A DNA stretch of 64,000 nt from a virus, in the IMG/VR virus record IMGVR_UViG_3300023174_000087, positions 51,202 through 115,201 of that record; one strand, written 5' to 3'. The position numbers and the translations under genes were made by a program. A model generated the notes under the pieces. That model saw only the letters and a list, made by a program, of their open reading frames with translations, ran no database searches and had not been told where the DNA came from. Below are positions 33,986 to 61,386 of the stretch, in pieces; within the stretch, counting starts at the first letter, position 1; each line of letters begins with the position of its first letter.

Positions 33986-34714
33986 ATGGCAATAGAAAAT
34001 AAAAAAGTACAAGAATTGCATGGTCGTGAGCATAAGTTTTTTTATAGAGATTTAAACTTAGATCTAGATGATATAACTAAAATTTTAGAGACTGAGTATG
34101 AAAGAATCCAAAAGGGAGAAATGCGTGGTGTAACTCCAGTAAATGTAGATGTGCCAAGACAAGAAATATTTTTAGAGTCAAACTCTGTTTCTACAATTAA
34201 ATCTAGAGAGTATAATGCTTTTCAAATGTACTACCCATTTTTACACGATCTATACTCTGAGGTAGTTGATATGACAATAGAAGCATGCGAATATTATGGT
34301 ATTGATTATAATGAACAAAAATATGTCTGTCAGGCCTGGTTTAATATAAATAATACAAGCAAGGGTGGAAAGTTAGATTGGCATGACCATGTTCCAATGG
34401 GAATGCTTAGTTCCACAGCATTTCATGGTTATTATTCTGTTAGTGCAGAACCATCTAAAACTCATTACCTTATTGATGGTGTAGAAAAAATTAACAACAA
34501 TAAAAATAATCGTGCAATACTTTCAAGAGTTGGCTATCCACACGCCATGGCAGATTGGAATTGGGAAGGACAAAGAATTACAATTGCCTATGATGTTGCA
34601 CCATTAAAATATTCATTACAAAAAGATTTTTTAAAATTTAAGCAACCAGAATATGCTTCATTTTGGGAACAACATTATTTCCCATTGCCACAATTAAAAT
34701 CATTAACAAAATAA
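33986..34714 (+). CDS. 2OG-Fe(II) oxygenase-type jelly-roll protein
   Basis: A 242-residue protein. AWFNINNTSKGGKLDWHDH near residues 113-131, a GYYSVSAEP strand near 150, GYPHAMADWNWEGQRITIAYDV near 182-203 match the pattern W-x-N...H-x-H...GYY...H...R seen in the TIGR02466-like branch of 2OG oxygenases. The first metal ligand pair reads HDH rather than HxD. It is a clear paralogue of the protein at 37900. The substrate is unknown. Confidence 0.7.
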   Translation: MAIENKKVQELHGREHKFFYRDLNLDLDDITKILETEYERIQKGEMRGVTPVNVDVPRQEIFLESNSVSTIKSREYNAFQMYYPFLHDLYSEVVDMTIEACEYYGIDYNEQKYVCQAWFNINNTSKGGKLDWHDHVPMGMLSSTAFHGYYSVSAEPSKTHYLIDGVEKINNNKNNRAILSRVGYPHAMADWNWEGQRITIAYDVAPLKYSLQKDFLKFKQPEYASFWEQHYFPLPQLKSLTK

Positions 34715-34730
34715 TTACTCTTAAGGTTGC

Positions 34731-34759
34731 TTGACAGTTCCCCGTAGTGATGATATACT
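34731..34759 (+). promoter_or_regulatory. Sigma70-type promoter for 34791
   Basis: TTGACA, exactly 17 nt, then TATACT. The predicted leader is about 25 nt with GAAAGGG before the ATG at 34791. Confidence 0.85.
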
Positions 34760-34790
34760 TAAATATAAACTATTTAGAAAGGGCTTTACG

Positions 34791-35315
34791 ATGACCTGCA
34801 TTGCCGTAGTAAAACATGAAGACAAAATTTACATGGCTGGAGATCGTGGCGCATCAGATGATGGAACAATTTTAGCACTTGAAGCACCAAAAGTTTGGAA
34901 AATAGGTCCATATTTAATTGGATATGCGGGAGCAATGGACGGAGAAAGAATCCGTTACAACTTTAAACCAACCGCGCCCAACATTAAAGACACAGATAGA
35001 TTTATGCAAACAAGGTTTGTGAAAGAACTTCGTGAGTTTTATAATGAATTTTGGGTAGACACATCTAAAGATGGAGATCTTGGTTTGATTATTGCAGTTC
35101 GTGGAGAAATATACGAACATAGTTCTGCAGACATGTCTTTATCTAAATATACATTGCCATATCTTGCTATGGGATCTGGAGCAGAATATGCATTTGGTGT
35201 TTTATATGCAACAGACAAGCAAAAAAATGCAAGAAATAGAGTCATGCAAGCGGTAAATGCTGCTATTAAATTTAATCCATCATGCATGGGTCCAGTTGAC
35301 ATTGTCAGTCTTTAA
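34791..35315 (+). CDS. Proteasome/HslV-like Ntn hydrolase
   Basis: The start is the ATG at 34791; a TTG at 34731 lies in the promoter. The 174-residue protein begins MTCIAVV, placing Thr at position 2 as the nucleophile after Met removal, then IYMAGDRGAS near residue 12 with the Asp seen in proteasome beta and HslV proteins, and a Lys near residue 34. YLIGYAGAMDG near residue 41 and LPYLAMGSGAEYA near 122 are also typical. It may be a peptidase acting on phage or host proteins. No unfoldase partner is visible. Confidence 0.72.
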   Translation: MTCIAVVKHEDKIYMAGDRGASDDGTILALEAPKVWKIGPYLIGYAGAMDGERIRYNFKPTAPNIKDTDRFMQTRFVKELREFYNEFWVDTSKDGDLGLIIAVRGEIYEHSSADMSLSKYTLPYLAMGSGAEYAFGVLYATDKQKNARNRVMQAVNAAIKFNPSCMGPVDIVSL

Positions 35316-35324
35316 GGATATACT
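35296..35324 (+). promoter_or_regulatory. Sigma70-type leaderless promoter for 35331
   Basis: TTGACA, 17 nt, TATACT, then 6 nt to the ATG at 35331. The -35 box lies inside the end of the Ntn-hydrolase gene. Confidence 0.85.
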
Positions 35325-35330
35325 TAATAT

Positions 35331-35534
35331 ATGAATCACACGCATGATGATTTATCACTAGAAGAACAAGAGTTTGGCATCTGGCTTTCAAATGGTATTG
35401 ACAGGGGATGGGTTACACCACCATACTGCAACACTCATGATGGCGGATATGAGTACATGAGTGAAGAAGAAAGCGATGAATGGGACCAAGGCGGAGACCC
35501 GTGTTGTCATGTCATCAGATTGATGATATCATAA
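35331..35534 (+). CDS. Small acidic protein, unknown (67 aa)
   Basis: An acidic protein with a His/Asp-rich start (MNHTHDDLS) and a central YCNTHDGGYEYMSEEESDEWDQG, then CCH near the end, which might bind metal. It is read from a strong leaderless promoter. Similar short acidic proteins occur in many actinophages, with no known function. Confidence 0.6.
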   Translation: MNHTHDDLSLEEQEFGIWLSNGIDRGWVTPPYCNTHDGGYEYMSEEESDEWDQGGDPCCHVIRLMIS

Positions 35535-35551
35535 AAATGAAAAGGAATAAA

Positions 35552-36361
35552 ATGAAAAAGATCGTAGCATTAGTAGCAGTACTGTTTTCAGTAATCACAC
35601 CAGTGCAATCACAAGCAGCGGTTGGAGAACGAATTGTAATTATTGACAGTTATTTTGATAAGACAAAAATTTCTGGAAGCATTGAGTTTGTGTGTCTTGC
35701 ATCCGATGGTTGCGTAAAAACAGCAATCCTAAAGCCAGGAATGGGAACTGATCCTGCAAACCATGGTACAGTTATGGCAAACATTGCTCGTCAACAAAAC
35801 TTAACAGCAACATTAGTTCTTATTCAAACAGAAGAAGTTTTGGTTAGCAATAAAGGTGTTGTATCTATTACAACTCTAGATGGCTCAGACTTCATTAAGG
35901 CTTTAGAATGGGTTAATTTAAATAAAAACAATGTATCAGCAGTATCATTTTCATATAATTTAACAAATTCAAATGCCAAGGTTGGTGAGTGTAAGATTTC
36001 TGCACAAGGTGGAGCAGTTACAGTCATGGATACATCAATTAAGTCTTTGGTTGCTTCCCTAAAGTCTTCAGGCATTCCAGTTCTTGCAGCAGCAGGAAAT
36101 GATAATAAAAAGCCATTGCAGTATCCAGCATGTCTTAATGATGTTGTTTCAATTGGATCAACTGGATCTGCAGCCTATCATCAAAATAACGTAAAAATTC
36201 TTGCAACAATTATCAATCCAGATAAGGCTTCATACATGAAGTCTGTTGCTCCATGGTTTGGATCTGTAGAATTTACTACTTCTGCAGCAACTGTTGCCGT
36301 AGCATCTAACTGGAAATCAATTCCAACAGGTACTACAAAGGTAAATATTCTCTCTAACTAA
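35552..36361 (+). CDS. Secreted subtilase-family (S8) serine protease-like
   Basis: From the ATG at 35552, with AAAGGA 5 nt before, the protein has 269 residues. MKKIVALVAVLFSVITPVQSQAA is read as a signal peptide. The catalytic triad is visible in order: Asp in RIVIIDSYFD near residue 30, His in NHGTVMANIA near 72, and Ser in TTSAATVAVAS near 250; VLAAAGND near 180 fits the oxyanion-hole Asn region. The usual GTS is TTS, so activity is uncertain. It may process surface proteins. Confidence 0.75.
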   Translation: MKKIVALVAVLFSVITPVQSQAAVGERIVIIDSYFDKTKISGSIEFVCLASDGCVKTAILKPGMGTDPANHGTVMANIARQQNLTATLVLIQTEEVLVSNKGVVSITTLDGSDFIKALEWVNLNKNNVSAVSFSYNLTNSNAKVGECKISAQGGAVTVMDTSIKSLVASLKSSGIPVLAAAGNDNKKPLQYPACLNDVVSIGSTGSAAYHQNNVKILATIINPDKASYMKSVAPWFGSVEFTTSAATVAVASNWKSIPTGTTKVNILSN

Positions 36362-36369
36362 GAGGGTAG

Positions 36370-36442
36370 TGGCCCATAACTCAGTTGGTAGAGTGCCGAA
36401 CTGTTAATTCGGATGTCCCAGGATCGAAACCTGGTGGGCCAG
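36370..36442 (+). tRNA. tRNA-Asn (GTT)
   Basis: A 73-base cloverleaf: acceptor TGGCCCA/TGGGCCA, D loop with GG, anticodon arm CCGAA-CTGTTAA-TTCGG with anticodon GTT, and T arm CCAGG-ATCGAAA-CCTGG. The T loop begins with A instead of T. CCA is not encoded. It is the only plus-strand tRNA in the window. Confidence 0.92.
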
Positions 36443-36455
36443 CAAATATATAGAT

Positions 36456-36464
36456 TGGTATAAT
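36456..36464 (+). promoter_or_regulatory. Extended -10 box, leaderless start for 36471
   Basis: TGGTATAAT ends 6 nt before the ATG at 36471. Confidence 0.6.
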
Positions 36465-36470
36465 GTTTTT

Positions 36471-37130
36471 ATGGATCCAAATAATTTTTTAAACAAGGGA
36501 AGACTTGGATCAAAATATTGGATAAACTCTGAACTAAAAACATTTGAAGAGTTGTGCAAAGATAATATCCTACAACACTCAAAATGGAAAAACTCTAAAA
36601 GTTTATTAAGTGTTGGTTTTGAAAATAAAATATTAAAACCAGCAAACGAATATGCAAGAATATTTTCAAATAAACCAGAAATAATTCAAGAAAATGATCA
36701 ACTAAGATTAAGATATAAAACCCATGCAGAAATATGGTTTGAGAAAAAGTCAGATGGATTTTATTGTTTAGACAAGGTGATGCAGCGACAATTCTATCCA
36801 TCTGAATTAGACATAAAAGTATTAAAAACAAACTTTGATGCCTTGTATAAATTTTACACGCCATGGATAATTGATTTAAATAAAAGTTTTTTAATAGAGC
36901 AAATTGATTCTTCTCCATTTTTCATACATAGCAAAGAAATTTTTTTCAATGAAATAAAAAAAGATAAAGATATTTGGGATATAGGTTTTGTTCATTTTTC
37001 TATTAAGAATATTGGAGATCACATAAAAAATTTCAATGGTGATTTTTTTGGGATAATAGATGCTCAAACACCCATGTATGATATAATCGTTGAAGATAAA
37101 GAAATAATAAAAAGGATACTAAGTGAATAA
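36471..37130 (+). CDS. Unknown protein paired with 37123
   Basis: A 219-residue protein, AT-rich codons, many Lys, Asn, Ile and aromatic residues, no signal or membrane segment. The last 8 bases overlap the following gene, so the two probably work together. I recognise no motif. Confidence 0.55.
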   Translation: MDPNNFLNKGRLGSKYWINSELKTFEELCKDNILQHSKWKNSKSLLSVGFENKILKPANEYARIFSNKPEIIQENDQLRLRYKTHAEIWFEKKSDGFYCLDKVMQRQFYPSELDIKVLKTNFDALYKFYTPWIIDLNKSFLIEQIDSSPFFIHSKEIFFNEIKKDKDIWDIGFVHFSIKNIGDHIKNFNGDFFGIIDAQTPMYDIIVEDKEIIKRILSE

Positions 37131-37860
37131 AAAAAATAAAATAAAATTTTCTCCAAGTTTGCAAAATACAGAAAGTTTATCTTATCAAAATCCACCAGTT
37201 GAATCTTCAAGAGTTATACCAGATTGGTACAAAGATTTATCTGGATTTAAAAATTCATCAAGTACAAATATTAGATTTTTAAACCCAGTAAATGATCGAG
37301 GACAAGATGGTTCTGATGTATCAACAAAACTATGTCCACCATATCTAGATGCAATAATTTCTGGATACATGCACACAGCACCAGAGGATATATTTGTTGA
37401 AATTTTAGAAGAAGAAAAACCAATAATTAGTTGGAAAAGCAATGAACACCTGATTGATACAAGGCCAAAAGTTGATGTTCCTATTCCAAAAGAATGTTAT
37501 CCTGTTCAGTTTGGTTGGAAGATGACTTGGTATTATGAAACACCGCCAGGATATTCTTTATTATTTACCCATCCACTTAATAGATACGATCTTCCATTTT
37601 ACAATGCTTCAGCGATTGTAGATAGTGATATCTGGGGACTTCCAGCATTTATGCCATTTTTTTTAAAGCGAGGATTTTCTGGGGTTATTCCAAAGGGCAC
37701 ACCACTTTTTCAAATGATACCAATAAAAAGAGATAACTGGGAATTAGATATAGATATGTCTGATGAAAAATATTGGAAAAATAAAGAAAGAGAAGAAAAA
37801 AGAAGAACAGACATAACTGGACACTACAAAAAAACAACATGGCAAAAAAAGCAATACTAG
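37123..37860 (+). CDS. Conserved phage protein of unknown function
   Basis: A 245-residue protein starting at GTG. The pattern SSRVIPDWYKDL near residue 27, LDAIISGYMHTAPEDI near 76, PPGYSLLFTHPLNRYDLPF near 140, and GFSGVIPKGTPLFQMIPIKR near 186 resembles a family I recall from cyanophages and other aquatic phages, without a known function. The C-terminal 35 residues are highly charged. Confidence 0.65.
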   Translation: MNKKNKIKFSPSLQNTESLSYQNPPVESSRVIPDWYKDLSGFKNSSSTNIRFLNPVNDRGQDGSDVSTKLCPPYLDAIISGYMHTAPEDIFVEILEEEKPIISWKSNEHLIDTRPKVDVPIPKECYPVQFGWKMTWYYETPPGYSLLFTHPLNRYDLPFYNASAIVDSDIWGLPAFMPFFLKRGFSGVIPKGTPLFQMIPIKRDNWELDIDMSDEKYWKNKEREEKRRTDITGHYKKTTWQKKQY

Positions 37861-37864
37861 TATA

Positions 37865-37873
37865 TGGTATAAT
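37865..37873 (+). promoter_or_regulatory. Extended -10 promoter for 37900
   Basis: TGGTATAAT just after the previous stop. The predicted leader is about 20 nt and includes GAGATAGGA. Confidence 0.5.
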
Positions 37874-37899
37874 TATTTTAACGAGAGATAGGATATAAA

Positions 37900-38559
37900 A
37901 TGCAAAACGCAATGCGTCCAATACCAAAAAGATATGACAAGCCACATAAGTTTTTTGAAAAACATCTAGACAATGATTTAGACAAGTTGGCTAACTTTTT
38001 AGAATTAAAGTACAAGCAAATAGAAGAAGCAAAAGTTCCAGGCGTAAGCAAGTTGGGCGAGAATGGAAGAGAGATTTGGCTTGAAAGCGGTAGTCTTTCA
38101 ACTGTAAAATGGAAAGAATATAATGTTTTTCAATTTTACAATGAAGAAATTTACAACCTGTTTGTGGGCATTAGAGAAACCGTAAAAGAAGCATGTGACT
38201 ACTATGGTATTGACTTTGATAAAGAAAAATATATGATTCAGGGTTGGTTTAATATTACACATAAGGGTAAGGGCAAACTAGATTGGCATGATCATGGTGG
38301 ACCATGGGCACCCTTTTTCCATGGATACTATTGTGTAAAAGCAGAACCATCATCTACATGGTACAAAATTGATAACAAAGATGAAAATGTTTTTGAAAAC
38401 AAAAATTTAGACAATCGACTTATAATTTCTGAAATGGGGCACCCACATGCGATGGCAGACTGGGACTGGGATGGATCAAGAATTACTATTGCTTATGATG
38501 TAATGCCACTAAGAGCATTACGAGGAGAAGTAAACGAACAACACTACTTCCCATTATAA
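37900..38559 (+). CDS. 2OG-Fe(II) oxygenase-type jelly-roll protein, paralogue of 33986
   Basis: A 219-residue protein. It shares KLDWHDH, FHGYY, KAEPSSTWY, GHPHAMADWDWDGSRITIAY and the final EQHYFPL with the protein at 33986, in the same order, so the two arose by duplication. The metal ligands would be the His pair in WHDH and the His in HPHAMADW. The substrate is unknown. It is followed two bases later by a glycosyltransferase-like gene. Confidence 0.72.
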   Translation: MQNAMRPIPKRYDKPHKFFEKHLDNDLDKLANFLELKYKQIEEAKVPGVSKLGENGREIWLESGSLSTVKWKEYNVFQFYNEEIYNLFVGIRETVKEACDYYGIDFDKEKYMIQGWFNITHKGKGKLDWHDHGGPWAPFFHGYYCVKAEPSSTWYKIDNKDENVFENKNLDNRLIISEMGHPHAMADWDWDGSRITIAYDVMPLRALRGEVNEQHYFPL

Positions 38560-38560
38560 T

Positions 38561-39385
38561 ATGAACACCATCAATGTATTTATTTATTCTTATAAAGTAA
38601 AATCTTTAATAGAAAACATAACTGACATTGTTAATAAACAAAGCAATAAAAATAAAATAATATATCATATTTTTGACCAAAGCACTACTGATAAAACTAT
38701 TAGTTTTAAAAAAAGAGACAATGTTTTTTATAGATACATATCGTGGGATGACACAAAAGGGGTTCCATATTATAGAAAACATGTTTTGTTTGATCAAAGC
38801 GCTAAATACTTTTTAGAGTTGTCACCAAACATATCTTTGTCAAAAAACTGGGACAGCGTTTTAATTGAATCATTAATGCCGAATACAATAATATCTGGTA
38901 ACTCAATAAAAAAAATTAAAATAGATAAAACACATACTTATATTCATGAAGAAAAAATAGATAATATTTCTGAGTCAAACTTTATAGACACAAACTTATT
39001 ATTTTTAAAACAAAAAGATTCAATATTTTTAAATCAGTTATCATTTTTAAAATATTACGGACAAGATTTATTTGCCTCAATATTGTCTGTTGCCAGAGGT
39101 ATTAAAATTTTTTCCATGAATTCTGATTTTTATACAGTAGATTCAAAAAATATAGATATGCTATATTATCCGTATTCAAAAATGCATGGATATAATAAAA
39201 TGATTGACACCATCAATTCATTTAAAAATAACACATTTGAAAGTTTTCACAACATAAAGGTTTCAGAAATACCTAAAATGTATTATCAGGTGGATGATGT
39301 TCCTTATCATGATGCAAGAACATCTATAGATGTCTCAGCATCAACAAAATTTCATAATGGATACAATAGTATAAGGGTGCTGTAG
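38561..39385 (+). CDS. Diverged GlcNAc-transferase-like protein
   Basis: A 274-residue protein. The start INVFIYSYKVKSL and KGVPYYRKHVLFDQ near residue 67, then KYFLELSPNISLSKNWDSVL near 83, follow the same layout as the GT60-like protein at 25414 (opening strand, donor helix, then the W-D pair), but the acidic and His residues of the donor-binding loop are missing (LSPNISL). It may be inactive, or use a different donor. The homology is an inference from order and spacing. Confidence 0.5.
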   Translation: MNTINVFIYSYKVKSLIENITDIVNKQSNKNKIIYHIFDQSTTDKTISFKKRDNVFYRYISWDDTKGVPYYRKHVLFDQSAKYFLELSPNISLSKNWDSVLIESLMPNTIISGNSIKKIKIDKTHTYIHEEKIDNISESNFIDTNLLFLKQKDSIFLNQLSFLKYYGQDLFASILSVARGIKIFSMNSDFYTVDSKNIDMLYYPYSKMHGYNKMIDTINSFKNNTFESFHNIKVSEIPKMYYQVDDVPYHDARTSIDVSASTKFHNGYNSIRVL

Positions 39386-39396
39386 TATAATATAAT
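39386..39396 (+). promoter_or_regulatory. Tandem -10 boxes for 39408
   Basis: Two TATAAT hexamers overlap by one base (39386-39391 and 39391-39396), 11-16 nt before the ATG. Confidence 0.45.
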
Positions 39397-39407
39397 ATGG
39401 TGATAAT

Positions 39408-39995
39408 ATGAACAGAATTACGGTTATTGATAATTTTATAAGCGAAAAAGATGCAAACATCTTAATCTCTGAACAGTTAAACCCAAGTGAAATAAATCAA
39501 TACCCAGAGCATTATAAAAGTAGATATGGCGGAACTGCCTTTCCATATAACAATATTGTCATGAGTATTTTAAAAAAATATGGATACCTATCTAGCGCAA
39601 AACACAAAGATTTAAATTCTTTTATTAATCCTATATATGTTTTTAAAGCATTTGGTTCTTGCTGGCTTCCAGGCACAAAGGGGGAACTTCATATTGATGC
39701 ACAAGGACCAGAGCCATGGATTGAGTTTAGTACAATTATTTATTTAAATGATGAGTTTGATGGAGGAGAACTTTATTTTCCAAATCAAAACTTAGTGTAT
39801 AAACCAAAAAAATATTCTGCTGTATTTTTTCCAAGTGCTGGTTCTGAATATATTCACGGGGTAACTACTGTTTCTTCTGGAATAAGACACACCGCTTTAT
39901 ATATGCACACAAGTTTGCCAAATAACGCAGATCCTGATTTTCATCCTAATAAAGAAAACTGGAAAGCATTGGAGCACTCGCATGTTGGATTATGA
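39408..39995 (+). CDS. Prolyl-4-hydroxylase-like 2OG-Fe(II) oxygenase
   Basis: A 195-residue protein with VIDNFISEKDANIL at the start, H-x-D in GELHIDAQG near residue 95, IIYLNDEFDGGELYFP near 110, distal His in YIHGVTTV near 145 and Arg in GIRHTALY near 156, the complete set for iron and 2-oxoglutarate binding. It would hydroxylate a protein or small molecule. It overlaps the next oxygenase gene by 14 bases. Confidence 0.83.
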   Translation: MNRITVIDNFISEKDANILISEQLNPSEINQYPEHYKSRYGGTAFPYNNIVMSILKKYGYLSSAKHKDLNSFINPIYVFKAFGSCWLPGTKGELHIDAQGPEPWIEFSTIIYLNDEFDGGELYFPNQNLVYKPKKYSAVFFPSAGSEYIHGVTTVSSGIRHTALYMHTSLPNNADPDFHPNKENWKALEHSHVGL

Positions 39996-40644
39996 AATTT
40001 TAGATCTTGGCTTAGTTTATTATAAAAATATTATTAAAAATCCAGAAAAACTCATTGAAGAGATTGAGTCTTTAGATGAAAAGTATAACAATAATATTGA
40101 AAATACAAATACACTAGTTGAGCCTTGGATAAAATGGAAATACAATTCTGGAGAAAAAGAGTTAATGTTCTGTTGGCAAAAATTTATACCACAAGTAGTT
40201 GATATTCCAGATTCTGATTTATACAAAGATGAGCAAACAAGTATCTCTTCTCAATTATTTGGAGCAATAGATAAAACTTTTGATCACTATACAAAAGAGT
40301 TGTACCCATTTGCTGAAAGAAATATAAAATCTAGAGAAAAAACCATGCACTTGTTAAAATATAATACTGCTGGACACCTACCAGCACATCAAGATCAAGG
40401 TATGAGTAGCAGAGTTTTATCAGTCCTTGTTTATTTAAACGATGATTATATAGGTGGGGATATAGAGTTTAAGCATTCTGGTGTAAGAATTAAGCCAAAG
40501 GCTGGAAGTCTATTGTTCTTTCCATCAAATTTTTTGTATGTACATGAGGTCCATCCAGTATATAAAGGTCCAAGGTATGCTCTTCCTAACTGGTTTCATA
40601 ACATACCATTTGAAAACAAAAGAGACTCTAATGGTGAAGAATGA
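39982..40644 (+). CDS. Prolyl-4-hydroxylase-like 2OG-Fe(II) oxygenase
   Basis: A 220-residue protein. HLPAHQDQGM near residue 132 supplies H-x-D, VLVYLNDDYIGGDIEF near 148 and LYVHEVHPV near 188 supply the strand and distal His, and GPRYALPNW the Arg. The region between residues 50 and 90 has a WxKW/W motif pattern seen in phage members of the family. Co-translated with the preceding oxygenase. Confidence 0.83.
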   Translation: MLDYEILDLGLVYYKNIIKNPEKLIEEIESLDEKYNNNIENTNTLVEPWIKWKYNSGEKELMFCWQKFIPQVVDIPDSDLYKDEQTSISSQLFGAIDKTFDHYTKELYPFAERNIKSREKTMHLLKYNTAGHLPAHQDQGMSSRVLSVLVYLNDDYIGGDIEFKHSGVRIKPKAGSLLFFPSNFLYVHEVHPVYKGPRYALPNWFHNIPFENKRDSNGEE

Positions 40645-40736: not shown

Positions 40737-42161
40737 GTGATAATACTTGGAGTAAACGAAACCAGTCATGACGCCTCTGTATCTTTAATCAAAGACGGAG
40801 AGATACTTTTTGCGGGGCATGCCGAAAGATATAGCAAGCAAAAAAATGACTGGTATGTGAATGATAGTTTAATAAAAGATGCTTTACAATATGGTACACC
40901 AGATCACATAGCCTACTATGAAAAGCCTCTTCTAAAGGCCTCTAGGCTGGCTTTAAAGGGTGGTTCTGGAGAATGGAAGCCAAGGTTTGAACTTTCTGGG
41001 ATTCCAAGAAAATCTTTTACTCATCACTATTCTCACGCAGCAGCAGGGTATTATACAAGTGCATTTAATGATGCAGTGATTGTAGTTCTTGATGCAATTG
41101 GTGAATATAACACCTCCACAATTTGGGTGGGTGAAGGCGATAAAATTAAATTAAAATATAAGCAAAATTATCCTGTTAGTTTTGGATTGTTTTATTCAGC
41201 ATTTACTCAACTCATAGGTCTGATGCCAAACCAAGAAGAATATATTATGATGGGAATGGCTGCTTATGGGGACTGGACAAGATATTATAAAGAAGTAGAC
41301 GAATACTTTCCAAAATATGACAGACAAAAATATAACTTTCATAAGGGAATTAGTGACTGGGGCATTGAGATTACAGATCAGGACAGGTTTGATATTGCAG
41401 CAGCAGTTCAAGTTGTTTATGAACAAAGACTAAATGATTTTATGCGTATGGCAAAACATATTACTGGGAAAAAGAACTTAGTATTTATGGGAGGGTGTGC
41501 CCTCAACTCATCAGCAAATACATTACTTTGGAATATATTTGATATGATTTGGATCATGCCAAACCCTGGTGATGCTGGCAGTTCTTTGGGAGCAGCAGCA
41601 GCACTATACGGAAAGCATCTTGATTGGAAGACTCCATATCTTGGCTATGATCTTGGAGGAGAGTACCCTGTTCAGCAAATTGTGGACGGCATACTAAAAA
41701 ATGGAGTAGTGGCAGTAGCAACAGGAAGAGCAGAGTATGGCCCAAGAGCATTGGGTAATAGAAGTATTCTTGCTGATCCAAGAGACCCATTGATCAAAAA
41801 TAAAGTTAATCTAATTAAACAAAGAGAGTTGTTTAGACCATTTGCCCCAGTTGTTATGGAAGAGTGTGCATCTAAATGGTTTGATATGGACTTTACATCA
41901 CCATATATGCAGTACACAGTAAAGTGCTTACAGCCAGAAAAAATACCATCTGTTGTTCATGCTGATGGAACATCTAGAGTGCAAACAGTAAACAGAGATC
42001 AGCATCGTGGATTGTGGAGAACAATTAACAAGTTCTATCTTCAAACTGGCGTTCCAGTTTTATTAAATACAAGTCTTAACATTAAAGGCCAGCCATTGCT
42101 TAATGATGAAACAGATATTATTGAATGGGAAAAAGAATATAACTTCAAAATATGCAGGTAA
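40737..42161 (+). CDS. NodU/CmcH-type carbamoyltransferase
   Basis: A 474-residue protein starting at GTG. MIILGVNETSHDASVSLI begins the ASKHA-fold N-domain; FTHHYSHAAAGYYTS near residue 95 is the HxxH metal-binding motif; VFMGGCALNSSAN near 249 and PGDAGSSLGAA near 277 are the nucleotide site; EYGPRALGNRSILADPR near 332 is a hallmark of the C-terminal domain. The family moves carbamoyl from carbamoyl phosphate to hydroxyls, for example on sugars or antibiotics. It is shorter than the usual 550-600 residues. The substrate is unknown. Confidence 0.88.
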   Translation: MIILGVNETSHDASVSLIKDGEILFAGHAERYSKQKNDWYVNDSLIKDALQYGTPDHIAYYEKPLLKASRLALKGGSGEWKPRFELSGIPRKSFTHHYSHAAAGYYTSAFNDAVIVVLDAIGEYNTSTIWVGEGDKIKLKYKQNYPVSFGLFYSAFTQLIGLMPNQEEYIMMGMAAYGDWTRYYKEVDEYFPKYDRQKYNFHKGISDWGIEITDQDRFDIAAAVQVVYEQRLNDFMRMAKHITGKKNLVFMGGCALNSSANTLLWNIFDMIWIMPNPGDAGSSLGAAAALYGKHLDWKTPYLGYDLGGEYPVQQIVDGILKNGVVAVATGRAEYGPRALGNRSILADPRDPLIKNKVNLIKQRELFRPFAPVVMEECASKWFDMDFTSPYMQYTVKCLQPEKIPSVVHADGTSRVQTVNRDQHRGLWRTINKFYLQTGVPVLLNTSLNIKGQPLLNDETDIIEWEKEYNFKICR

Positions 42162-42198: not shown

Positions 42199-42747
42199 AT
42201 GGCAGAAAAAGGAACACTACAGGCAATCGTCGAGGTTGCAAAGAAAGAAATTGGAACCATTGAAGGTCCAAAAGATAATGAAACAAAATATGGTAAGTGG
42301 ACAGGGGCAAATTTCCTTCCATGGTGCCAATCATTTGTTTCTTGGTGTGCATTTACTGCAGGACTTGATGCAAAAAAGTATCCAAAAAGCGCAGCAACAG
42401 TCGCAGCATCTGATTGGTTTAAAAAGAATAACCGTTGGTCTGATGCTCGTAATGATGATCCAACTCCAGGTGATTGGATTTATTTTGATTTTCCAGATGA
42501 TGGAGTAAATCGTATTTCACATGTTGGTTTATGTATCAAGAATAACGGCGATGGAACTATCCAAGTTATTGAAGGAAACACATCTGGAACAGCAAAGGGA
42601 GATCAACGCAACGGAGGAATGTGCGTTGAAAAAACTCGTGGTTATGTAAAGAATAACAAGAAGAAATTAATCAATGCTGTAGTTGGCTGGGGTCGTCCAG
42701 TATATGTTGGAGAAGAAGATGCTCCATTGTTAAATAAGGTTAAGTGA
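42199..42747 (+). CDS. CHAP-domain endolysin
   Basis: A 182-residue protein. The CHAP Cys is in PWCQSFVSWCAF near residue 42, preceded by a helix (AKKEIGTIEG), with the catalytic His in ISHVGLCIKN near residue 108 and VIEGNTSG near 124 providing the third residue region. CHAP enzymes cut peptidoglycan peptides or amide bonds at lysis. There is no signal peptide, so release needs a holin. A membrane protein follows at once. Confidence 0.88.
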   Translation: MAEKGTLQAIVEVAKKEIGTIEGPKDNETKYGKWTGANFLPWCQSFVSWCAFTAGLDAKKYPKSAATVAASDWFKKNNRWSDARNDDPTPGDWIYFDFPDDGVNRISHVGLCIKNNGDGTIQVIEGNTSGTAKGDQRNGGMCVEKTRGYVKNNKKKLINAVVGWGRPVYVGEEDAPLLNKVK

Positions 42748-42965
42748 TGGAATCAAACAAAAGAAGTTTATATAAATCAATTACTTGGCCAGCAGTGCAT
42801 ATTGGATTTGTTGGCACACTAATATATTTCTTTGAAAAAGCAATTACTGGAGAAGCACACTGGGAATACGCTGGATCATTTGCATTAATTTATACAGTAT
42901 GCGAAATGATTGGTTATTTTTTACATGAAAGAGCATGGTCAAAATTTGGAAAAAAGATAAACTAA
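42747..42965 (+). CDS. DUF2061-like membrane protein
   Basis: Residues about 7-65 match the DUF2061 pattern: SLYKSITWPAVHIGFVGTL near the start, then two membrane segments, ending in FLHERAW. It overlaps the endolysin stop (TGATG). The second copy at 46894 is more canonical. Next to the endolysin it could aid lysis, but the family's function is unknown. Confidence 0.7.
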   Translation: MESNKRSLYKSITWPAVHIGFVGTLIYFFEKAITGEAHWEYAGSFALIYTVCEMIGYFLHERAWSKFGKKIN

Positions 42966-44567: not shown

Positions 44568-44819
44568 ATGTTTACAATGATTAAAGACGAAGTTAAGCAG
44601 GAGTGGCAACTATCTCCACAGGATCGTTGCGATAAATGCAACGCTGAGGCTTTAGTAAAAATTACTGGAATTAGTGGAGACCTTTTGTTTTGTGGTCATC
44701 ACTACAATAAGATAATGTCTATTCCAGATGGATACAATAGCATGATGTCTTTCATGATTAGCATTGTTGATGAACGAGAAAAACTTGTTGAAAACAAGTC
44801 AAAGGGTAAGGACTACTAA
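44568..44819 (+). CDS. DUF7455-like Cys/His protein
   Basis: An 83-residue protein: LSPQDRCDKCNAEALVKI near residue 15 and DLLFCGHHYNKIM near 40, then a helix with VDEREKL. I recognise this as the small actinobacterial/actinophage family called DUF7455, probably zinc-binding. Its strong promoter suggests early or high expression. Confidence 0.7.
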   Translation: MFTMIKDEVKQEWQLSPQDRCDKCNAEALVKITGISGDLLFCGHHYNKIMSIPDGYNSMMSFMISIVDEREKLVENKSKGKDY

Positions 44820-45580
44820 TGATTATTCAGATTATCGGTCTTCCAGGTTCTGGGAAAACAGAATTAGCGAAGGCATTAAAAGAACGTATTAACGCTATCC
44901 ATCTCAATGCAGATGAGGTTCGTGCAACGGTAAACTCAGACCTGGGGTTTACACCAGAGGATCGACTTGAACAGGCCCGTCGCATGGGAGAGATGGCTCG
45001 CCTTATCTCTAAGCAGGGGGTTGCTCCAGTAATCGTGGACTTTGTTTGTCCTACAGAATTAACTCGTGCAGCATTTGGAAAGCCAGATGTTCTTGTCTAT
45101 ATGGATACAATTAAAGAAGGTCGTTTTGAAGATACAAACAAGATGTTCGAAGCACCTACAGAGTATGATTGGTCATTTTTAAATCACACGATAGATCCAA
45201 ATGAAAAGTCTTCTATCCTTATTGAAGAGTTTGGACTACATGATTGGTCAGCACCCACAACGCTAATGCTTGGTCGCTACCAGCCATGGCACGAAGGTCA
45301 CCATGCTCTCTACAAAGAAGCGGGAAAGAGAACAGAGCAGGTACTGCTTGGAGTCCGTAATACATACAACACAAGCGAAAAGGATCCGCTTACCTTTGAT
45401 CAAGTAAAGGGTTACATTGCTAAGGACGATTTTATGGATGGTGCATTAGTACTAAGACTACCCAATATAACAAATATTGTATATGGTCGTGATGTAGGAT
45501 ATAAGATTGAGCAAGTAGATTTAGGGGCAGATATTCATGCTATTTCTGCAACGGAAAAGCGTAAAGAACTAGGAATCTAG
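44819..45580 (+). CDS. APS-kinase-like / nucleotidyltransferase fusion
   Basis: A 253-residue protein with two parts. Residues 1-130 are a P-loop kinase like CysC: IIQIIGLPGSGKTELAKAL at the start, HLNADEVRATVNSDLGF near 28, GVAPVIVDFVCPT near 65. Residues about 140-253 are an HIGH-type nucleotidyltransferase: TLMLGRYQPWHEGHHALY near 144 holds HxGH, and HAISATEKRKEL near the end the second motif. NMN adenylyltransferases have such motifs; ATP sulfurylases have related ones but are much longer. One reading is a minimal PAPS-making enzyme, since a sulfotransferase gene overlaps its stop codon. Confidence 0.75.
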   Translation: MIIQIIGLPGSGKTELAKALKERINAIHLNADEVRATVNSDLGFTPEDRLEQARRMGEMARLISKQGVAPVIVDFVCPTELTRAAFGKPDVLVYMDTIKEGRFEDTNKMFEAPTEYDWSFLNHTIDPNEKSSILIEEFGLHDWSAPTTLMLGRYQPWHEGHHALYKEAGKRTEQVLLGVRNTYNTSEKDPLTFDQVKGYIAKDDFMDGALVLRLPNITNIVYGRDVGYKIEQVDLGADIHAISATEKRKELGI

Positions 45581-46218
45581 TGTTGTACTCGTCAGACCAC
45601 AAGTTTTTATTAATTAAAAACATGAAGGTTGGAAGCACATCCTTAGAGGTAGAACTTTCTAAAATTTTACCAAAGAATGCCATTGTTACAACGATTAATC
45701 CTCCAAACATGAGTCATCAGCCTAGAAACTATGGAGAGTTTAGGAATCATGAATCATTTTCTAGTATTTCATCAAAGATTGATCTATCTGGTGTAACTTC
45801 CTATGTCTTTGTAAGAAACCCTTATGAGTGTGTGTTGTCAGATTTTTTCTTTAGGCCAGACATTAAAAAACTTTCTAGTCAGTGGGAGTCTATCAAGAAG
45901 TATGAAAGAATAAAAATGGTAGACAACTACTTTAAAGGAAAACTAACATATGGGCCTTTCATGAGAAGTACAAAAATGCTTTACTCTGATGGAAACACTG
46001 TGCTTGTAGATCATTTGTTGAGGTATGAAAATGGTATAGAAAGTGAAATAAATAAATTTTTACCAATACATGGACTACCTACAATTACTATTAACACTTT
46101 TGAAAAGGCTCATAGGCCCAAACATATTATATATAGTGACATATTTACCAATAATCAAAAAGAACAAATTCAAGAGGAGTGGTTTTGGGAATTTGACAAC
46201 TTGGGGTATAATAGATAA
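45580..46218 (+). CDS. Sulfotransferase-like protein
   Basis: A 212-residue protein starting at GTG, which shares one base with the previous TAG. KFLLIKNMKVGSTSLEVEL near residue 8 is the 5'-phosphosulfate loop and SYVFVRNPYECVLSDFF near 71 the 3'-phosphate loop of PAPS-dependent sulfotransferases, as in the carbohydrate sulfotransferase branch. It would transfer sulfate to a sugar or protein. Tight coupling to the kinase fusion is notable. Confidence 0.8.
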   Translation: MLYSSDHKFLLIKNMKVGSTSLEVELSKILPKNAIVTTINPPNMSHQPRNYGEFRNHESFSSISSKIDLSGVTSYVFVRNPYECVLSDFFFRPDIKKLSSQWESIKKYERIKMVDNYFKGKLTYGPFMRSTKMLYSDGNTVLVDHLLRYENGIESEINKFLPIHGLPTITINTFEKAHRPKHIIYSDIFTNNQKEQIQEEWFWEFDNLGYNR

Positions 46219-46782
46219 ATGATAACAAAAAAAGAAGAAAGTTTTAATTTTAATTTTATTGGCTCTTACAATGTGTCTAATATTAATAAAATTATTGAGA
46301 CTTTTTCTAATGAGTGGACATTAAATACATCAAGACAGTCGATGTTTGATGAAACACATAAATATACAAATACATACTTTCTTCGTGTACTAGACAATAA
46401 ATGGGAACCAAACCAAGAACTAAGATCTTTTCCAATTGCAACAAATACACAACTTCTTGCAGAAATAGATACAATTGTTGCAGATCTTGAAAAGTATCAC
46501 AATGGCAAATGTGGCGCAGCAATGATTGTTAAACTATTTTCAGATAACAATGTTTTGCCACATTCAGATAATTCCCCATACCTGTCTGCAGCAAGAAGAC
46601 ATCATATACCGTTAAAAACAAATAAAGATGTTATATTTTTTGTAGGAGATGAAACAATGCATTTAGGTGTAGGGGAATGTTGGGAAATAAATAATAACAA
46701 AATCCATGCAGTGACAAATCATTCAGAAGAGGATAGGATACATTTAATAATTGATATTATTCCTAATAGGTTTATTAAATGA
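46219..46782 (+). CDS. Aspartyl/asparaginyl beta-hydroxylase-like oxygenase
   Basis: A 187-residue protein. VLPHSDNSPYLSAARRHHIPL near residue 113 supplies the first His and the RRHH-like strand, MHLGVGECWEINNNKIHAV near 146 the W-x-x-x-N and second His, and RIHLIIDI near 174 the Arg. This order is that of the Asp/Asn beta-hydroxylase family, a 2OG-dependent group. Substrate unknown. It begins right after the sulfotransferase stop. Confidence 0.8.
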   Translation: MITKKEESFNFNFIGSYNVSNINKIIETFSNEWTLNTSRQSMFDETHKYTNTYFLRVLDNKWEPNQELRSFPIATNTQLLAEIDTIVADLEKYHNGKCGAAMIVKLFSDNNVLPHSDNSPYLSAARRHHIPLKTNKDVIFFVGDETMHLGVGECWEINNNKIHAVTNHSEEDRIHLIIDIIPNRFIK

Positions 46783-46907
46783 TAATTTTAAAAATATTTA
46801 AATTTATTTTTCTGCAATTTAAAAAATCTTCAAAAGGAATTGCAGATGCAGAAGACAGATTTGTAGCATCTATGTTTAAAGAAAAGGATAAAGATGAAAG
46901 TAACTAG
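46779..46907 (+). CDS. Small membrane-like protein (42 aa)
   Basis: The ATG overlaps the previous stop (ATGA). A hydrophobic N-terminus (IILKIFKFIFLQF) precedes a charged end. It fills an otherwise empty gap and overlaps the next gene start. Function unknown. Confidence 0.45.
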   Translation: MIILKIFKFIFLQFKKSSKGIADAEDRFVASMFKEKDKDESN

Positions 46908-47097
46908 GCAAAGATCATTTGTTAAATCTTTAAGTTATCGTGTATTTGGCACTCTGTCATCATTTGTAGTTGCATATGTAATTACTGGTAAGGGCAGTCT
47001 ATCTGCTCTAATTGCTATGTGGGAAACAATAGTTAAGGTTGGAATTTACTATTGGCACGAAAGAATTTGGGATAAAATTCGTTGGGGGAGAAAATAA
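46894..47097 (+). CDS. DUF2061 membrane protein
   Basis: A 67-residue protein with the full DUF2061 pattern: SFVKSLSYRVFGTLSSFVVAY, VITGKGSLSALIAMWETIVKV, and YYWHERIWDKIRW at the end. Two membrane segments are likely. The family is widespread, function unknown. The stop overlaps the nuclease start (TAATG). Confidence 0.85.
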   Translation: MKVTRQRSFVKSLSYRVFGTLSSFVVAYVITGKGSLSALIAMWETIVKVGIYYWHERIWDKIRWGRK

Positions 47098-55200: not shown

Positions 55201-55203
55201 TTG

Positions 55204-55274
55204 CTTCCAGACATAGACTCGAACTATGATTCACGCCTTCAAAGGGCGTTGTCCTGCCATTGGACGATCTGGAA
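55204..55274 (-). tRNA. tRNA-Gln (TTG)
   Basis: 71 bases on the minus strand: acceptor TTCCAGA/TCTGGAA, anticodon arm ACGCC-CTTTGAA-GGCGT (anticodon TTG), T arm CATAG-TTCGAGT-CTATG, discriminator G as in bacterial tRNA-Gln. Confidence 0.9.
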
Positions 55275-55278
55275 CTAG

Positions 55279-55351
55279 TATCCCCAACGGGATTCGAACC
55301 CGTGTTGCCACCGTGAAAGGGTGGAGTCCTAGGCCTCTAGACCATGGGGAC
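55279..55351 (-). tRNA. tRNA-Glu (TTC)
   Basis: 73 bases: acceptor GTCCCCA/TGGGGAT, anticodon arm CCACC-CTTTCAC-GGTGG (TTC), T arm ACGGG-TTCGAAT-CCCGT. Confidence 0.93.
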
Positions 55352-55352
55352 T

Positions 55353-55426
55353 TGGAGCGAGTGACCAGAATCGAACTGGCACAACCAACTTGGAAGGATG
55401 GTGCACTACCATTATGCAACACTCGC
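55353..55426 (-). tRNA. tRNA-Gly (TCC), CCA encoded
   Basis: Acceptor GCGAGTG/CACTCGC, anticodon loop CTTCCAA (TCC), T arm GCCAG-TTCGATT-CTGGT, then T and an encoded CCA. The anticodon stem has one mismatch. Confidence 0.9.
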
Positions 55427-55430
55427 TTTG

Positions 55431-55503
55431 TACCCCTGGCAAGAATCGAACTTGCGACGCATGGCTTAGAAGTCCATCGTTCTGTCCACTGAACTACAGA
55501 GGT
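55431..55503 (-). tRNA. tRNA-Arg (TCT)
   Basis: 73 bases: acceptor ACCTCTG/CAGGGGT with one G-U, anticodon loop CTTCTAA (TCT), T arm GCAAG-TTCGATT-CTTGC. Reads AGA, a common codon in this AT-rich genome. Confidence 0.9.
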
Positions 55504-55507
55504 TTAG

Positions 55508-55578
55508 TAGGCCTAGAAGGTAATGCTCCTTCTTCTCAGGATTAAAAGTCCTGAGCATCACTTTAATGCTTTAGGCCC
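55508..55578 (-). tRNA. tRNA-Lys (TTT), unusual D and T loops
   Basis: A complete 71-base cloverleaf with acceptor GGGCCTA/TAGGCCT, D arm GCAT-TAAAGTG-ATGC, anticodon arm CAGGA-CTTTTAA-TCCTG (TTT), T arm GAAGG-AGCATTA-CCTTC. All stems pair, yet the T loop lacks TTCGA and the D loop lacks GG, so the normal loop-loop contact cannot form. Confidence 0.7.
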
Positions 55579-55582
55579 ATTG

Positions 55583-55656
55583 TACACCAGGTAGGACTTG
55601 AACCTACGATCTTCAGTATATAAGACTGATGCCTTAACCGACTTGGCTACTGGTGC
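55583..55656 (-). tRNA. tRNA-Ile (TAT)
   Basis: 74 bases: acceptor GCACCAG/CTGGTGT, anticodon arm TCAGT-CTTATAT-ACTGA (TAT, reads AUA), T arm GTAGG-TTCAAGT-CCTAC. AUA is frequent in these genes, so the tRNA likely helps phage translation. Confidence 0.9.
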
Positions 55657-55908: not shown

Positions 55909-55937
55909 ATTATACTGAAGTAAATGCTAAAAGTCAA
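55909..55937 (-). promoter_or_regulatory. Sigma70-type promoter on minus strand
   Basis: On the minus strand TTGACT, 17 nt, TATAAT, before the GGAGG-led small gene at 55885; it would also drive the tRNA cluster. The -35 lies in the end of the upstream sulfotransferase gene. Confidence 0.8.
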
Positions 55938-56520
55938 GTTGTCTTTTATATATAGCATAACGAGATTCTTCATATATATTTATTAATTCATCTAAACCAC
56001 TAATGCTATTGTATAAAATATCATAGGAACTCAAATCTTTTGATGTTGGAAATACATACATATTTTTGTTTTGAGCATAATTGAATCTAAGCATTTTTTC
56101 TACTTTTACATCAGGAAATATAAAATCTTCTTTATATCCACAATAATTTAAAAATATACTAAAACTTTTTTTAGGATTTTCAGTTATTTGCTCAAATGTA
56201 AAAGGCACTATGTTTTCAATATTGTCAACCATCAACAACATATATTTTTTAAAATCTTCAATAGATTTGGAGTGATCTATTTGTTCTAAATCTTCTTTAG
56301 AATATTTTTTATCTTGCAACCCCATAGCGATGTCGGATACAATTACATCTTTTGGGTTTCTTAGAACAGAAATAACCACAGAGTTTTCTACTTCTTTGTC
56401 TATTTTCCACCAAGGACTCTTATGTATAATCATTTTTGGGTTTATCACAGCAACATTATTAACTATAAAATTACTGGCAGATCTAGCATAACTTCTAACA
56501 AATAACTGCTTATACGTCAT
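55927..56520 (-). CDS. Sulfotransferase-like protein
   Basis: A 197-residue protein. QLFVRSYARSASNFIVNNV near residue 5 is the phosphosulfate loop, and SVVISVLRNPKDVIVSDIA near 47 the 3'-phosphate loop with Arg. The layout is compact, as in other phage sulfotransferases. It overlaps the next upstream sulfotransferase gene by 11 bases. The two are distant relatives; substrates unknown. Confidence 0.72.
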   Translation of the reverse strand: MTYKQLFVRSYARSASNFIVNNVAVINPKMIIHKSPWWKIDKEVENSVVISVLRNPKDVIVSDIAMGLQDKKYSKEDLEQIDHSKSIEDFKKYMLLMVDNIENIVPFTFEQITENPKKSFSIFLNYCGYKEDFIFPDVKVEKMLRFNYAQNKNMYVFPTSKDLSSYDILYNSISGLDELINIYEESRYAIYKRQLDF

Positions 56521-57082
56521 TTAATATTACACATTTCTTTAAAGCCATACTGTATAAATCATTGCATTCTGAAAGGTCTAAACTAGAAACAATAACTCTT
56601 ACTTCATTGTAATACTTAGATTTTTTAGAACTTTTTAAAAATTTTTGTTTTGGATCGTCTAAAACTATGTCTTTAAGATTATTGTTTTTAACCTCATAAC
56701 CAGTCAGTCTTGATACATACAATATAACTTCTTCAGTGTTTGCCACAATATCGTTAAAATTAATAAAGTTATTTGAATTTTTTAAAATAAAAGAATAAAA
56801 ATCGCAATACTCTTCTATTCTAATTTTAATTAAATCTTCTATAATTAAACTCTCATTAAACTCCATTTGCATAGCAACAATAGATGATATAGAGTCAACA
56901 GGATTTCTTACTAAACTAATTATATGATCATAATTTTTTAGTTTTTCTTTTTCTCCTGGCTTATTTAAATGAGAATAATAAAACATGTTAGAAAAAGCAA
57001 GTGTGAGCATAGATTGTAAATAACTTTTGCCAGATCTAGGATAAGCAATGATTATTGGATTCAAGACAAATCTCTTTTCCAA
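56510..57082 (-). CDS. Sulfotransferase-like protein
   Basis: A 190-residue protein from TTG at 57082 (no nearby ATG; a second TTG lies six codons later). IIIAYPRSGKSYLQSML near residue 10 is a clear 5'-PSB loop (PRSG-x-[ST]), and HIISLVRNPVDSISS near 53 the 3'-phosphate loop. It overlaps the membrane-protein gene upstream by 22 bases and the other sulfotransferase downstream. Confidence 0.78.
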   Translation of the reverse strand: MEKRFVLNPIIIAYPRSGKSYLQSMLTLAFSNMFYYSHLNKPGEKEKLKNYDHIISLVRNPVDSISSIVAMQMEFNESLIIEDLIKIRIEEYCDFYSFILKNSNNFINFNDIVANTEEVILYVSRLTGYEVKNNNLKDIVLDDPKQKFLKSSKKSKYYNEVRVIVSSLDLSECNDLYSMALKKCVILNDV

Positions 57083-59020: not shown

Positions 59021-59026
59021 ATTATA
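59021..59026 (-). promoter_or_regulatory. -10 box, leaderless start for 59015
   Basis: On the minus strand TATAAT ends 5 nt before the ATG at 59015. Confidence 0.55.
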
Positions 59027-59573
59027 GCGCAATCTTTTTTTCTAAAACTTTATTGTAATAGAAATTACATAAACCAAGATCAAAACCATCTAAAAGATTT
59101 GCACTATAAGATGGCAAAACTTTGCTTGATGGAAGATATTCTTTTTCATACCAATAGTTACCTCTATCAAAAAACTTATAATCTTCTTCATTTATTTCTA
59201 GCAGGCTTATAATTTTTTTAGCAATAGAATCAGGATATGTTACAAGATCATTAAAATCTATAACATAGTCTGCATACTGATACAAAAAATTATTGAAAAG
59301 TATATATTCTGAAATGGCTTCCCTAGTCCTAGTCTTTTGAGCAGACTCAGGTGGAATATATTTTCTTAATTCGCTTGCTCTATACGATACAAGAGTGTCT
59401 ATTGGATTTCTAACTATTGTGATTATTTTTCTTTTTTTTTGATTGTTTTCATCAAAAAGTTCAGATACAAAGTGAGATTTTTCAATATGAATTCCTATCT
59501 TTTTATAAATGATTTCGTCAAAATAATGAGAACCACTTCTAGGAAATGTCAAAAGGTAGGGCAAATTTTTCAT
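59022..59573 (-). CDS. Sulfotransferase-like protein
   Basis: From the ATG at 59573 the protein has 183 residues. YLLTFPRSGSHYFDEIIY near residue 5 is the 5'-PSB loop, RKIITIVRNPIDTLVSY near 47 the 3'-phosphate loop. DRGNYWYEKEYLPSS near 135 is a family-like acceptor region. The start overlaps the preceding zinc-finger gene (ATGA). Its stop lies in the promoter of the SGNH gene. Confidence 0.8.
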   Translation of the reverse strand: MKNLPYLLTFPRSGSHYFDEIIYKKIGIHIEKSHFVSELFDENNQKKRKIITIVRNPIDTLVSYRASELRKYIPPESAQKTRTREAISEYILFNNFLYQYADYVIDFNDLVTYPDSIAKKIISLLEINEEDYKFFDRGNYWYEKEYLPSSKVLPSYSANLLDGFDLGLCNFYYNKVLEKKIAL

Positions 59574-59695
59574 GATACTAAACTCATAGATAAGTGAAAA
59601 AAGCATACATCAGCAACAATATATTTCCCACAATTTACTACAATATCAAAATGAGTTGCGTCATTTTTACAAAAGAAACATTTACTTTTTTCCAT
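59570..59695 (-). CDS. Zinc-finger-like protein (41 aa)
   Basis: CFFC at residue 6, then Cys at 22 and 31, are spaced for one zinc. Stop overlaps the sulfotransferase ATG. A leaderless promoter precedes it. Function unknown. Confidence 0.5.
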   Translation of the reverse strand: MEKSKCFFCKNDATHFDIVVNCGKYIVADVCFFHLSMSLVS

Positions 59696-60262: not shown

Positions 60263-60263
60263 A

Positions 60264-61115: not shown

Positions 61116-61374
61116 TATTAACTGCTCTTCCTTTAGTTTTAAACCATGAACCTATTTTAGACTTAGATACTTTTTCACGCAAAATTTCTCCAAATGTTTC
61201 ATGAGATATATCTGATCCAAGATACTCTTGACCTGTTTCAAGGTCAATTAGTTTCCATTTGGCTGGTGCTTTTGTGTGTAAAATTAAATCAATTGGGGAA
61301 TCATAATCATTTACTTCAGATCCATCTAAAAGTTTTCTTTTCTTTTGGTTTTTCCCTGAAGCATTGTTTGTCAT
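61102..61374 (-). CDS. Small basic protein, unknown (90 aa)
   Basis: Disordered basic start (MTNNASGKNQKKRK), then a beta-like KWKLIDLETGQEYLGSD and a basic helix. Such K-W-x-L-x-D-x-x-T-G patterns are common in small actinophage proteins, function unknown. Leads the monooxygenase operon from a leaderless promoter. Confidence 0.55.
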   Translation of the reverse strand: MTNNASGKNQKKRKLLDGSEVNDYDSPIDLILHTKAPAKWKLIDLETGQEYLGSDISHETFGEILREKVSKSKIGSWFKTKGRAVNNGKH

Positions 61375-61380
61375 TATTCA

Positions 61381-61386
61381 ATTATA
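61381..61386 (-). promoter_or_regulatory. -10 box, leaderless start for 61374
   Basis: On the minus strand TATAAT ends 6 nt before the ATG at 61374. Confidence 0.55.

Follow-up and report, generated by a model that had tools for sequence, protein, structure and literature searches.

A phage kinase/nucleotidyltransferase fusion as a probable miniature PAPS synthase with a new type of ATP sulfurylase

A 253-residue protein of a freshwater phage, in which an APS-kinase-like P-loop domain is joined to an HxGH nucleotidyltransferase (NT), is probably a miniature bifunctional PAPS synthase with a new type of ATP sulfurylase, judging from its relatives in marine bacteria, haloarchaea and numerous other phages. 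Two ATP sulfurylases that are unrelated to each other, Sat and CysDN, are known to activate sulfate, and PAPS is the donor needed by sulfotransferases. On balance, we favour the broader reading that the NT represents a third class of ATP sulfurylase, of about 115 residues, that evolved independently of the other two from a NadM-like ancestor and would serve SAR11, SAR86, other marine alphaproteobacteria, haloarchaea and many phages. If this third class makes APS and PAPS, sulfate can be activated by organisms believed to lack this ability. No such enzyme was described in the open-access titles and abstracts that literature searches listed.

Domains and motifs of the fusion protein

The fusion lies in a viral record of 115,201 bases, 64 kb of which were analysed here as one stretch (the window). 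The presence of a WhiB gene and of a DUF7455 protein in the window suggests an actinobacterial host for this phage. The kinase half matched Pfam APS_kinase over residues 2-85 only, with 56.4 bits compared to a gathering score of 21.1 bits, and phrog_10255 was matched over the whole length of the protein (Table 1). The NT half is of the HIGH type, spans residues ~146-250 (about 110-115 residues) and carries the motifs GRYQPWHEGH, YGRDVGY and ISATEKR. Its match to Pfam CTP_transf_like was under the cut-off (0.0023), and NMN adenylyltransferase (NMNAT) profile models matched it at 9e-6. As GRxQPxHxGH was kept in all but one of the homologues, chance was ruled out for this motif. An earlier note on this DNA had claimed that a CysC-like P-loop kinase is fused here to a short HxGH nucleotidyltransferase, and this was borne out by the PF01583 match and by the conserved NT motifs.

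Table 1. Positions of the fusion, its motifs and the genes discussed, numbered from the first base of the window
Feature	Position	Strand	Basis
Kinase/NT fusion, proposed miniature PAPS synthase	44819..45580	+	PF01583 4.7e-15 (kinase half); phrog_10255 6e-62
P-loop GLPGSGKT, kinase residues 7-14	44837..44860	+	P-loop pattern in 235/237 homologues
Kinase D32..R35, APS-kinase catalytic Asp region (DGDxxR)	44912..44923	+	Alignment to APS kinases
C-terminal HIGH-superfamily NT, proposed sulfate adenylyltransferase	45233..45577	+	Alignment; model pLDDT 89; Foldseek nearest NadM
GRYQPWHEGH (HxGH) of NT	45272..45301	+	GRxQPxHxGH in 231/232 homologues
GRDVGY of NT	45485..45502	+	GRxVGY in 230/232 homologues
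ISATEKR of NT	45542..45562	+	[IV]x[AG]TxxR in 226/232 homologues
Sulfotransferase-like gene, GTG start	45580..46218	+	PF00685 18.4 bits, cut-off 22
Aspartyl/asparaginyl beta-hydroxylase-like gene	46219..46782	+	PF05118 3.2e-14
DUF2061 small membrane protein	46894..47097	+	PF09834 1.1e-17
Second DUF2061 gene	42744..42965	+	PF09834 8.3e-9
Further sulfotransferase	55927..56520	-	PF00685 24.1 bits, above the 22-bit cut-off
Further sulfotransferase-like gene	56510..57082	-	PF00685 20.6 bits, just below cut-off
Further sulfotransferase	59022..59606	-	PF00685 26.9 bits, above cut-off

Nature of the nucleotidyltransferase

When the NT was used in a profile search, archaeal NadM-type NMNATs were the closest matches (2qjt, 6e-11), in partial alignment only. 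The nearest folds found by Foldseek with the NT's own model were also NadM NMNATs (1ej2/4yp7), and phosphopantetheine adenylyltransferases were among the weaker structural and profile matches. With the NadM equivalog model TIGR01527, the window protein reached 18.7 bits and thus missed the cut-off of 181.2 bits. Sat (PF01747) was not matched by the fusion in the Pfam search, and it was absent from the matches of the NT by profile search or Foldseek. The structural comparison with ATP sulfurylase and NadM that the earlier note had proposed therefore placed NadM nearest, and no homology of the NT to ATP sulfurylase was found by fold.

The HxxH site and the C-terminal SxTxxR of the HIGH superfamily are present in the NT (as HEGH and ISATEKR), and being common to the entire superfamily they are not diagnostic of Sat. 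A kinship between the GRD of GRDVGY and the GRDHAG of Sat was also considered and dropped, because the D is variable among the NT family. By sequence and predicted structure, the NT is a truncated NadM-like domain, homologous to neither Sat nor CysDN; as an ATP sulfurylase, it would be of a new kind and not a reduced version of a known one.

The likeness to NadM could also be read as evidence that the NT is an NMN adenylyltransferase, the fusion then being a NadR-like enzyme of NAD salvage (nucleotide kinase plus NMNAT). The NadM-type profiles and folds nearest to the NT fit this reading, as does a NADAR-domain gene located directly upstream of the fusion in Casjensviridae relatives. However, the kinase is APS-kinase-like, and NadR structures matched through their NMNAT half only; the NT has ~115 residues compared to ~168 in NadM, with a partial alignment; and the neighbouring genes are sulfotransferases and cysI/cysH, not NAD genes. 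The alternative raised in the earlier note, that of an NMNAT-like domain, therefore held for sequence and fold, whereas an enzyme acting on NMN is disfavoured by the kinase type, the NT length and the sulfur neighbours, and we regard NAD salvage as quite improbable.

The kinase half and its haloarchaeal relatives

The best 50 Foldseek matches listed for the model of the whole fusion were all APS kinases or bifunctional enzymes containing them. The kinase residues D32, R35, F44 and R49 were invariant in the homologue alignments, where they aligned to the catalytic Asp, the APS-binding Arg and the first stacking Phe of CysC. The catalytic role of Asp480 and the site residues are known from the M. 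tuberculosis CysC (PMC4373884). With the APS kinase model TIGR00455, the window kinase scored 57.5 bits and missed the curated cut-off of 138.7 bits. The usual lid motif, FTGIDxPYE, is replaced in the phage kinase by GR[FY]xDTN..F..P, for which two alignments are possible. No residue could be safely assigned as the second stacking Phe of the lid, and none is conserved clearly enough to be placed with confidence as the ATP-stacking Arg or the catalytic Lys that CysC has there. As far as the phage protein specifically is concerned, the case for a PAPS synthase is weakest at this shortened lid.

Haloarchaeal plasmids encode a 284-residue fusion of a full APS kinase with the same NT. Its kinase half matched the full PF01583 domain with 152-155 bits, and the haloarchaeal homologues passed the TIGR00455 cut-off with 158.3 and 147.8 bits. 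The window and haloarchaeal fusions aligned end to end (31% identity, E 2e-31), with a gap of ~20 residues at the lid, which is shorter in the window kinase. An annotated sulfotransferase was located one or two genes upstream of the haloarchaeal fusion in all five annotated regions examined, which belong to four genera. A gene of the YqcI/YcgG family was also observed beside this fusion and its sulfotransferase, downstream in L271-L274 and, as YcgG, upstream in L275.

Cellular relatives in marine bacteria

A genome scan gave cellular homologues in various alphaproteobacteria as well as in SAR11, SAR86 and SAR116. The kinase and the NT are encoded by separate, usually overlapping genes (~135 and ~124 residues) in SAR11 and SAR86, and in a gammaproteobacterial contig (L201) both are fused in the reverse order. 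Domains that are fused in some genomes and separate in others are a classic sign of one shared pathway. Therefore, the split overlapping genes and the reversed fusion argue that the two domains act as a functional pair.

In a family of marine alphaproteobacteria (the L210 family), the NT was present in five of six genomes, and all five had cysH, DUF2061, kinase and NT in that order. Upstream of cysH, the genes for siroheme methyltransferase and sulfite reductase (cysI) were found in L210 and L207; in L210 the curated models gave 701 bits for sulfite reductase, 250 for CysH and 281 for siroheme methyltransferase. In the sixth genome, without the NT, cysH is at a contig end. Each NT-bearing genome of the family has a single PAPS_reduct-family gene above the cut-off, which is the cysH of the operon. 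CysD was found in none of these five metagenome-assembled genomes and Sat was not found in four of them, the genomes being incomplete, a caveat lessened by the repetition over five of them. In the fifth genome (G098), Sat is present on a different contig, beside pyruvate kinase.

The CysH of all five genomes carries the CC...CxxC signature, which is a mark of APS reductases, so APS must be made somehow in them. From their gene content, these genomes apparently reduce APS without a recognised APS-making enzyme save the kinase-NT pair. As the pair is in the cysH operon, CysD was not found and Sat is mostly missing, the pair is the best candidate for sulfate activation there. Sat was detected in only four of the 49 genomes that have the pair or the kinase, and where SAR11 and SAR86 have the genes split, neither a Sat nor a CysD candidate was found.

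Next to the SAR11/SAR86 pair, no partner that uses sulfate could be identified; the neighbours of the pair include GcvT-like genes. In the SAR11 and SAR86 loci L202, L213 and L199 the split genes lie near a GcvT-family gene (GCV_T, DmdA-like by reading), and this neighbour may point to a connection with methylated sulfur or C1 metabolism.

The pair could, in principle, use an acceptor other than sulfate, with adenylyl transfer followed by 3'-OH phosphorylation. Formally the same two-step chemistry is carried out by CoA synthase (PPAT plus dephospho-CoA kinase) and in the Campylobacter phosphoramidate pathway, which has a CysC-like kinase. This identity, the phosphopantetheine adenylyltransferases among the weaker NT matches and the SAR11/SAR86 neighbourhood of GcvT-like genes with no obvious sulfate user speak for such an acceptor. 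However, the kinase matched APS kinase and not CoaE, the haloarchaeal members passed the APS-kinase equivalog-domain cut-off, and the gene contexts, a cysIH operon and neighbouring sulfotransferases, are specific to sulfur, so that another acceptor is considered improbable.

Among the cellular fusions, L173, L180, L181, L189 and L197 have sulfotransferase neighbours with Pfam support. Relatives consisting of the kinase only were also found (L164-L169, L194, L196, L198 and Methylosinus). In a Microvirga lotononidis plasmid (L270:7001-7762), the kinase half is intact and the NT motifs are decayed (HESH, HGLDLGY, SPTAVQ); the NT motifs also deviate in L181 and L191.

Kinase-only relatives and decayed motifs such as those of Microvirga would be expected if the kinase were a genuine APS kinase and the NT were regulatory or acted elsewhere, PAPS being boosted only from the APS of the host. 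In contrast, the catalytic motifs of the NT are all preserved across ~230 homologues, organisms with split genes and without Sat and CysD retain the NT, and the cysH-linked genomes would otherwise be without an APS source. Moreover, the kinase-only L194, L196 and L198 have extra PAPS_reduct-family genes, as expected if CysD is present in them. A regulatory or unrelated role of the NT is thus highly improbable, and sulfate adenylylation by the NT remains the preferred reading.

Sulfotransferases and other genes around the fusion

The TAG stop of the fusion and the GTG start of the following ORF overlap by one base (TAGTG), as the earlier note had pointed out in describing that ORF as a sulfotransferase gene. 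The overlap was confirmed, although the assignment was less firm: the PF00685 score of the ORF is under the gathering score, whereas a phosphosulfate-binding-like KVGSTSLE motif is present and relatives of the ORF adjoin the same kinase in loci L038, L043 and L138. By sequence, the ORF is a plausible, if weak, sulfotransferase candidate. The window contains four sulfotransferase candidates in all, and two of the three besides this ORF pass the Pfam cut-off.

A scan of viral contigs yielded at least 597 relatives of the fusion, from which 80 close relatives were kept (84-90% identical). When the scan was started from a Stenotrophomonas phage protein, divergent viral fusions at about 40-60% identity were detected, and no matches were obtained in the viral scan with the Suzuki protein as query. 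A sulfotransferase directly 3' of the fusion was present in none of the 80 close relatives, and the one-base overlap was therefore rejected as a conserved coupling. The hydroxylase and sulfotransferase pair stands upstream of the kinase in L043, and the G+C content is 32% in the sulfotransferase and 29% in the hydroxylase compared to 42% in the fusion. These data point to insertion of a sulfotransferase/hydroxylase cassette at this place, the one-base coupling being specific to this phage. The overlap is thus a local arrangement, probably recent, and what recurs is the presence of some sulfotransferase.

This recurrence was assayed in 50 fusion-bearing viral records, which were searched whole with three sulfotransferase families (E<=1e-3). 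Of the 27 sulfotransferase loci detected, 8 were within 1 kb of the fusion compared to 1.5 expected under random placement (p~1e-4, an approximate value as some of the records are related), and 11 were within 2.5 kb compared to 3.7 expected. Five or more distinct lineages are represented among the near cases, as are several families of sulfotransferase. In L094, L099, L096 and L137 the neighbours are sulfotransferase-like by motif reading only, without Pfam support.

The sulfotransferase-like ORF of the window could be an accidental neighbour in a cargo hot spot instead of a partner of the fusion, and its absence from that place in the close relatives, its low G+C content and the position of the same pair on the opposite side of the kinase in L043 would agree with this. 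Nevertheless, differing sulfotransferase families repeatedly adjoin the fusion or the kinase in phages, SAR11, alphaproteobacteria and haloarchaea, and this repeated arrival argues for a functional pull, even if this particular ORF could still be a passenger. We therefore regard a purely accidental association as unlikely, and a partnership of the fusion with sulfotransferases is preferred.

In the Casjensviridae relatives L001-L005, the NADAR gene runs into the beginning of the fusion gene, with a MazG-like gene nearby. One of these is recorded as a phage of Clavibacter (Gram-positive), with a locus closely like those of Xanthomonas/Stenotrophomonas phages. A role in NAD/ADP-ribose chemistry suggested by these NADAR neighbours was set aside, as the link is absent elsewhere among the loci examined.

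DUF2061 is the usual gene 3' of the fusion in actinophages and is also its downstream neighbour in the divergent phages L123, L129 and L137. In five marine genomes it lies between cysH and the kinase (L210:4865-5125; L250-L254), where it encodes a predicted small membrane protein. In Caulobacter, DUF2061 is among the iron-responsive genes (PMC3751524). DUF2061 may be a sulfate-related membrane protein.

The window is also unusually rich in 2OG-oxygenase-like genes (33986-40644 and 59711-62679) and has a NodU-type carbamoyltransferase (40737-42161), which together suggest that the phage has an extensive repertoire of modification enzymes. Six tRNA genes (Gln, Glu, Gly, Arg, Lys and Ile) are clustered on the minus strand at 55203-55656. 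Luciferase-like monooxygenase-type genes were seen near the fusion in L027 (5179-8004) and near the sulfotransferase cluster of the window (60264-61115); a desulfonating role is conceivable for these genes, with a weak Pfam match (0.045) in the case of the window.

Proposed reactions and their meaning

In the proposed mechanism, sulfate would attack the alpha phosphate of ATP in the C-terminal HxGH domain to give APS and PPi, an unfavourable reaction that pyrophosphatase and the kinase would draw forward. The N-terminal kinase would then use a second ATP to phosphorylate the 3'-OH of APS, yielding PAPS, with D32 as the putative base (the equivalent of Asp480 of the M. tuberculosis CysC) and R35, F44 and R49 in the APS site. 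The PAPS would feed the sulfotransferases of the phage. From gene neighbourhoods and fusion partners, we infer that sulfate is the substrate, that the phage kinase with its short lid acts on APS, and that the PAPS reaches the adjoining sulfotransferase. The idea of the earlier note, a minimal PAPS-making enzyme at the service of sulfotransferases, was strengthened by the haloarchaeal fusions, the cysH operons and the sulfotransferase neighbours, whereas the coupling by one base proved specific to this phage and the activity is still a presumed one.

If true, a very small third ATP sulfurylase would alter the reading of genomes for sulfur metabolism. Many environmental viruses would then carry every step needed to get from ATP and sulfate to a sulfated product, together with a range of sulfotransferases, and phages may add sulfate to their own virions or to the surface of the host. 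DUF2061 would gain a lead as a membrane protein tied to sulfate activation. The DNA needed for testing the reading is about 750 bases.

Comparison with known systems

The NT shares with NadM the GRxQPxHxGH motif, the C-terminal [ST]xTxxR and the overall Rossmann HIGH fold, and differs from it in being about 50 residues shorter, in aligning only in part and in having neighbourhoods related to sulfur and not to NAD. With Sat (PF01747) and CysDN it has in common the proposed reaction, and it would fill the missing sulfate-activation slot of the cysIH operon. Unlike Sat, to which it is related at the superfamily level only, it has neither a profile nor a fold match to that enzyme, and CysD, of a PAPS-reductase-like family, is an altogether different protein.

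The phage kinase aligns with CysC and other APS kinases at the P-loop, D..R, LGF, R49 and FxxP, and departs from them in its TIGR00455 score and its shortened lid. The window protein is a full-length member of phrog_10255, a family labelled just 'kinase', in which the NT half and a role in PAPS synthesis are not described. Finally, the animal PAPS synthases (PAPSS1/2) have the same order of kinase and then adenylyltransferase and the same proposed two-step product, and the kinase fold matches that of PAPSS1. However, their second domain is a full Sat-type ATP sulfurylase, whereas that of the phage protein is a NadM-like domain of ~110 residues within a total of 253.
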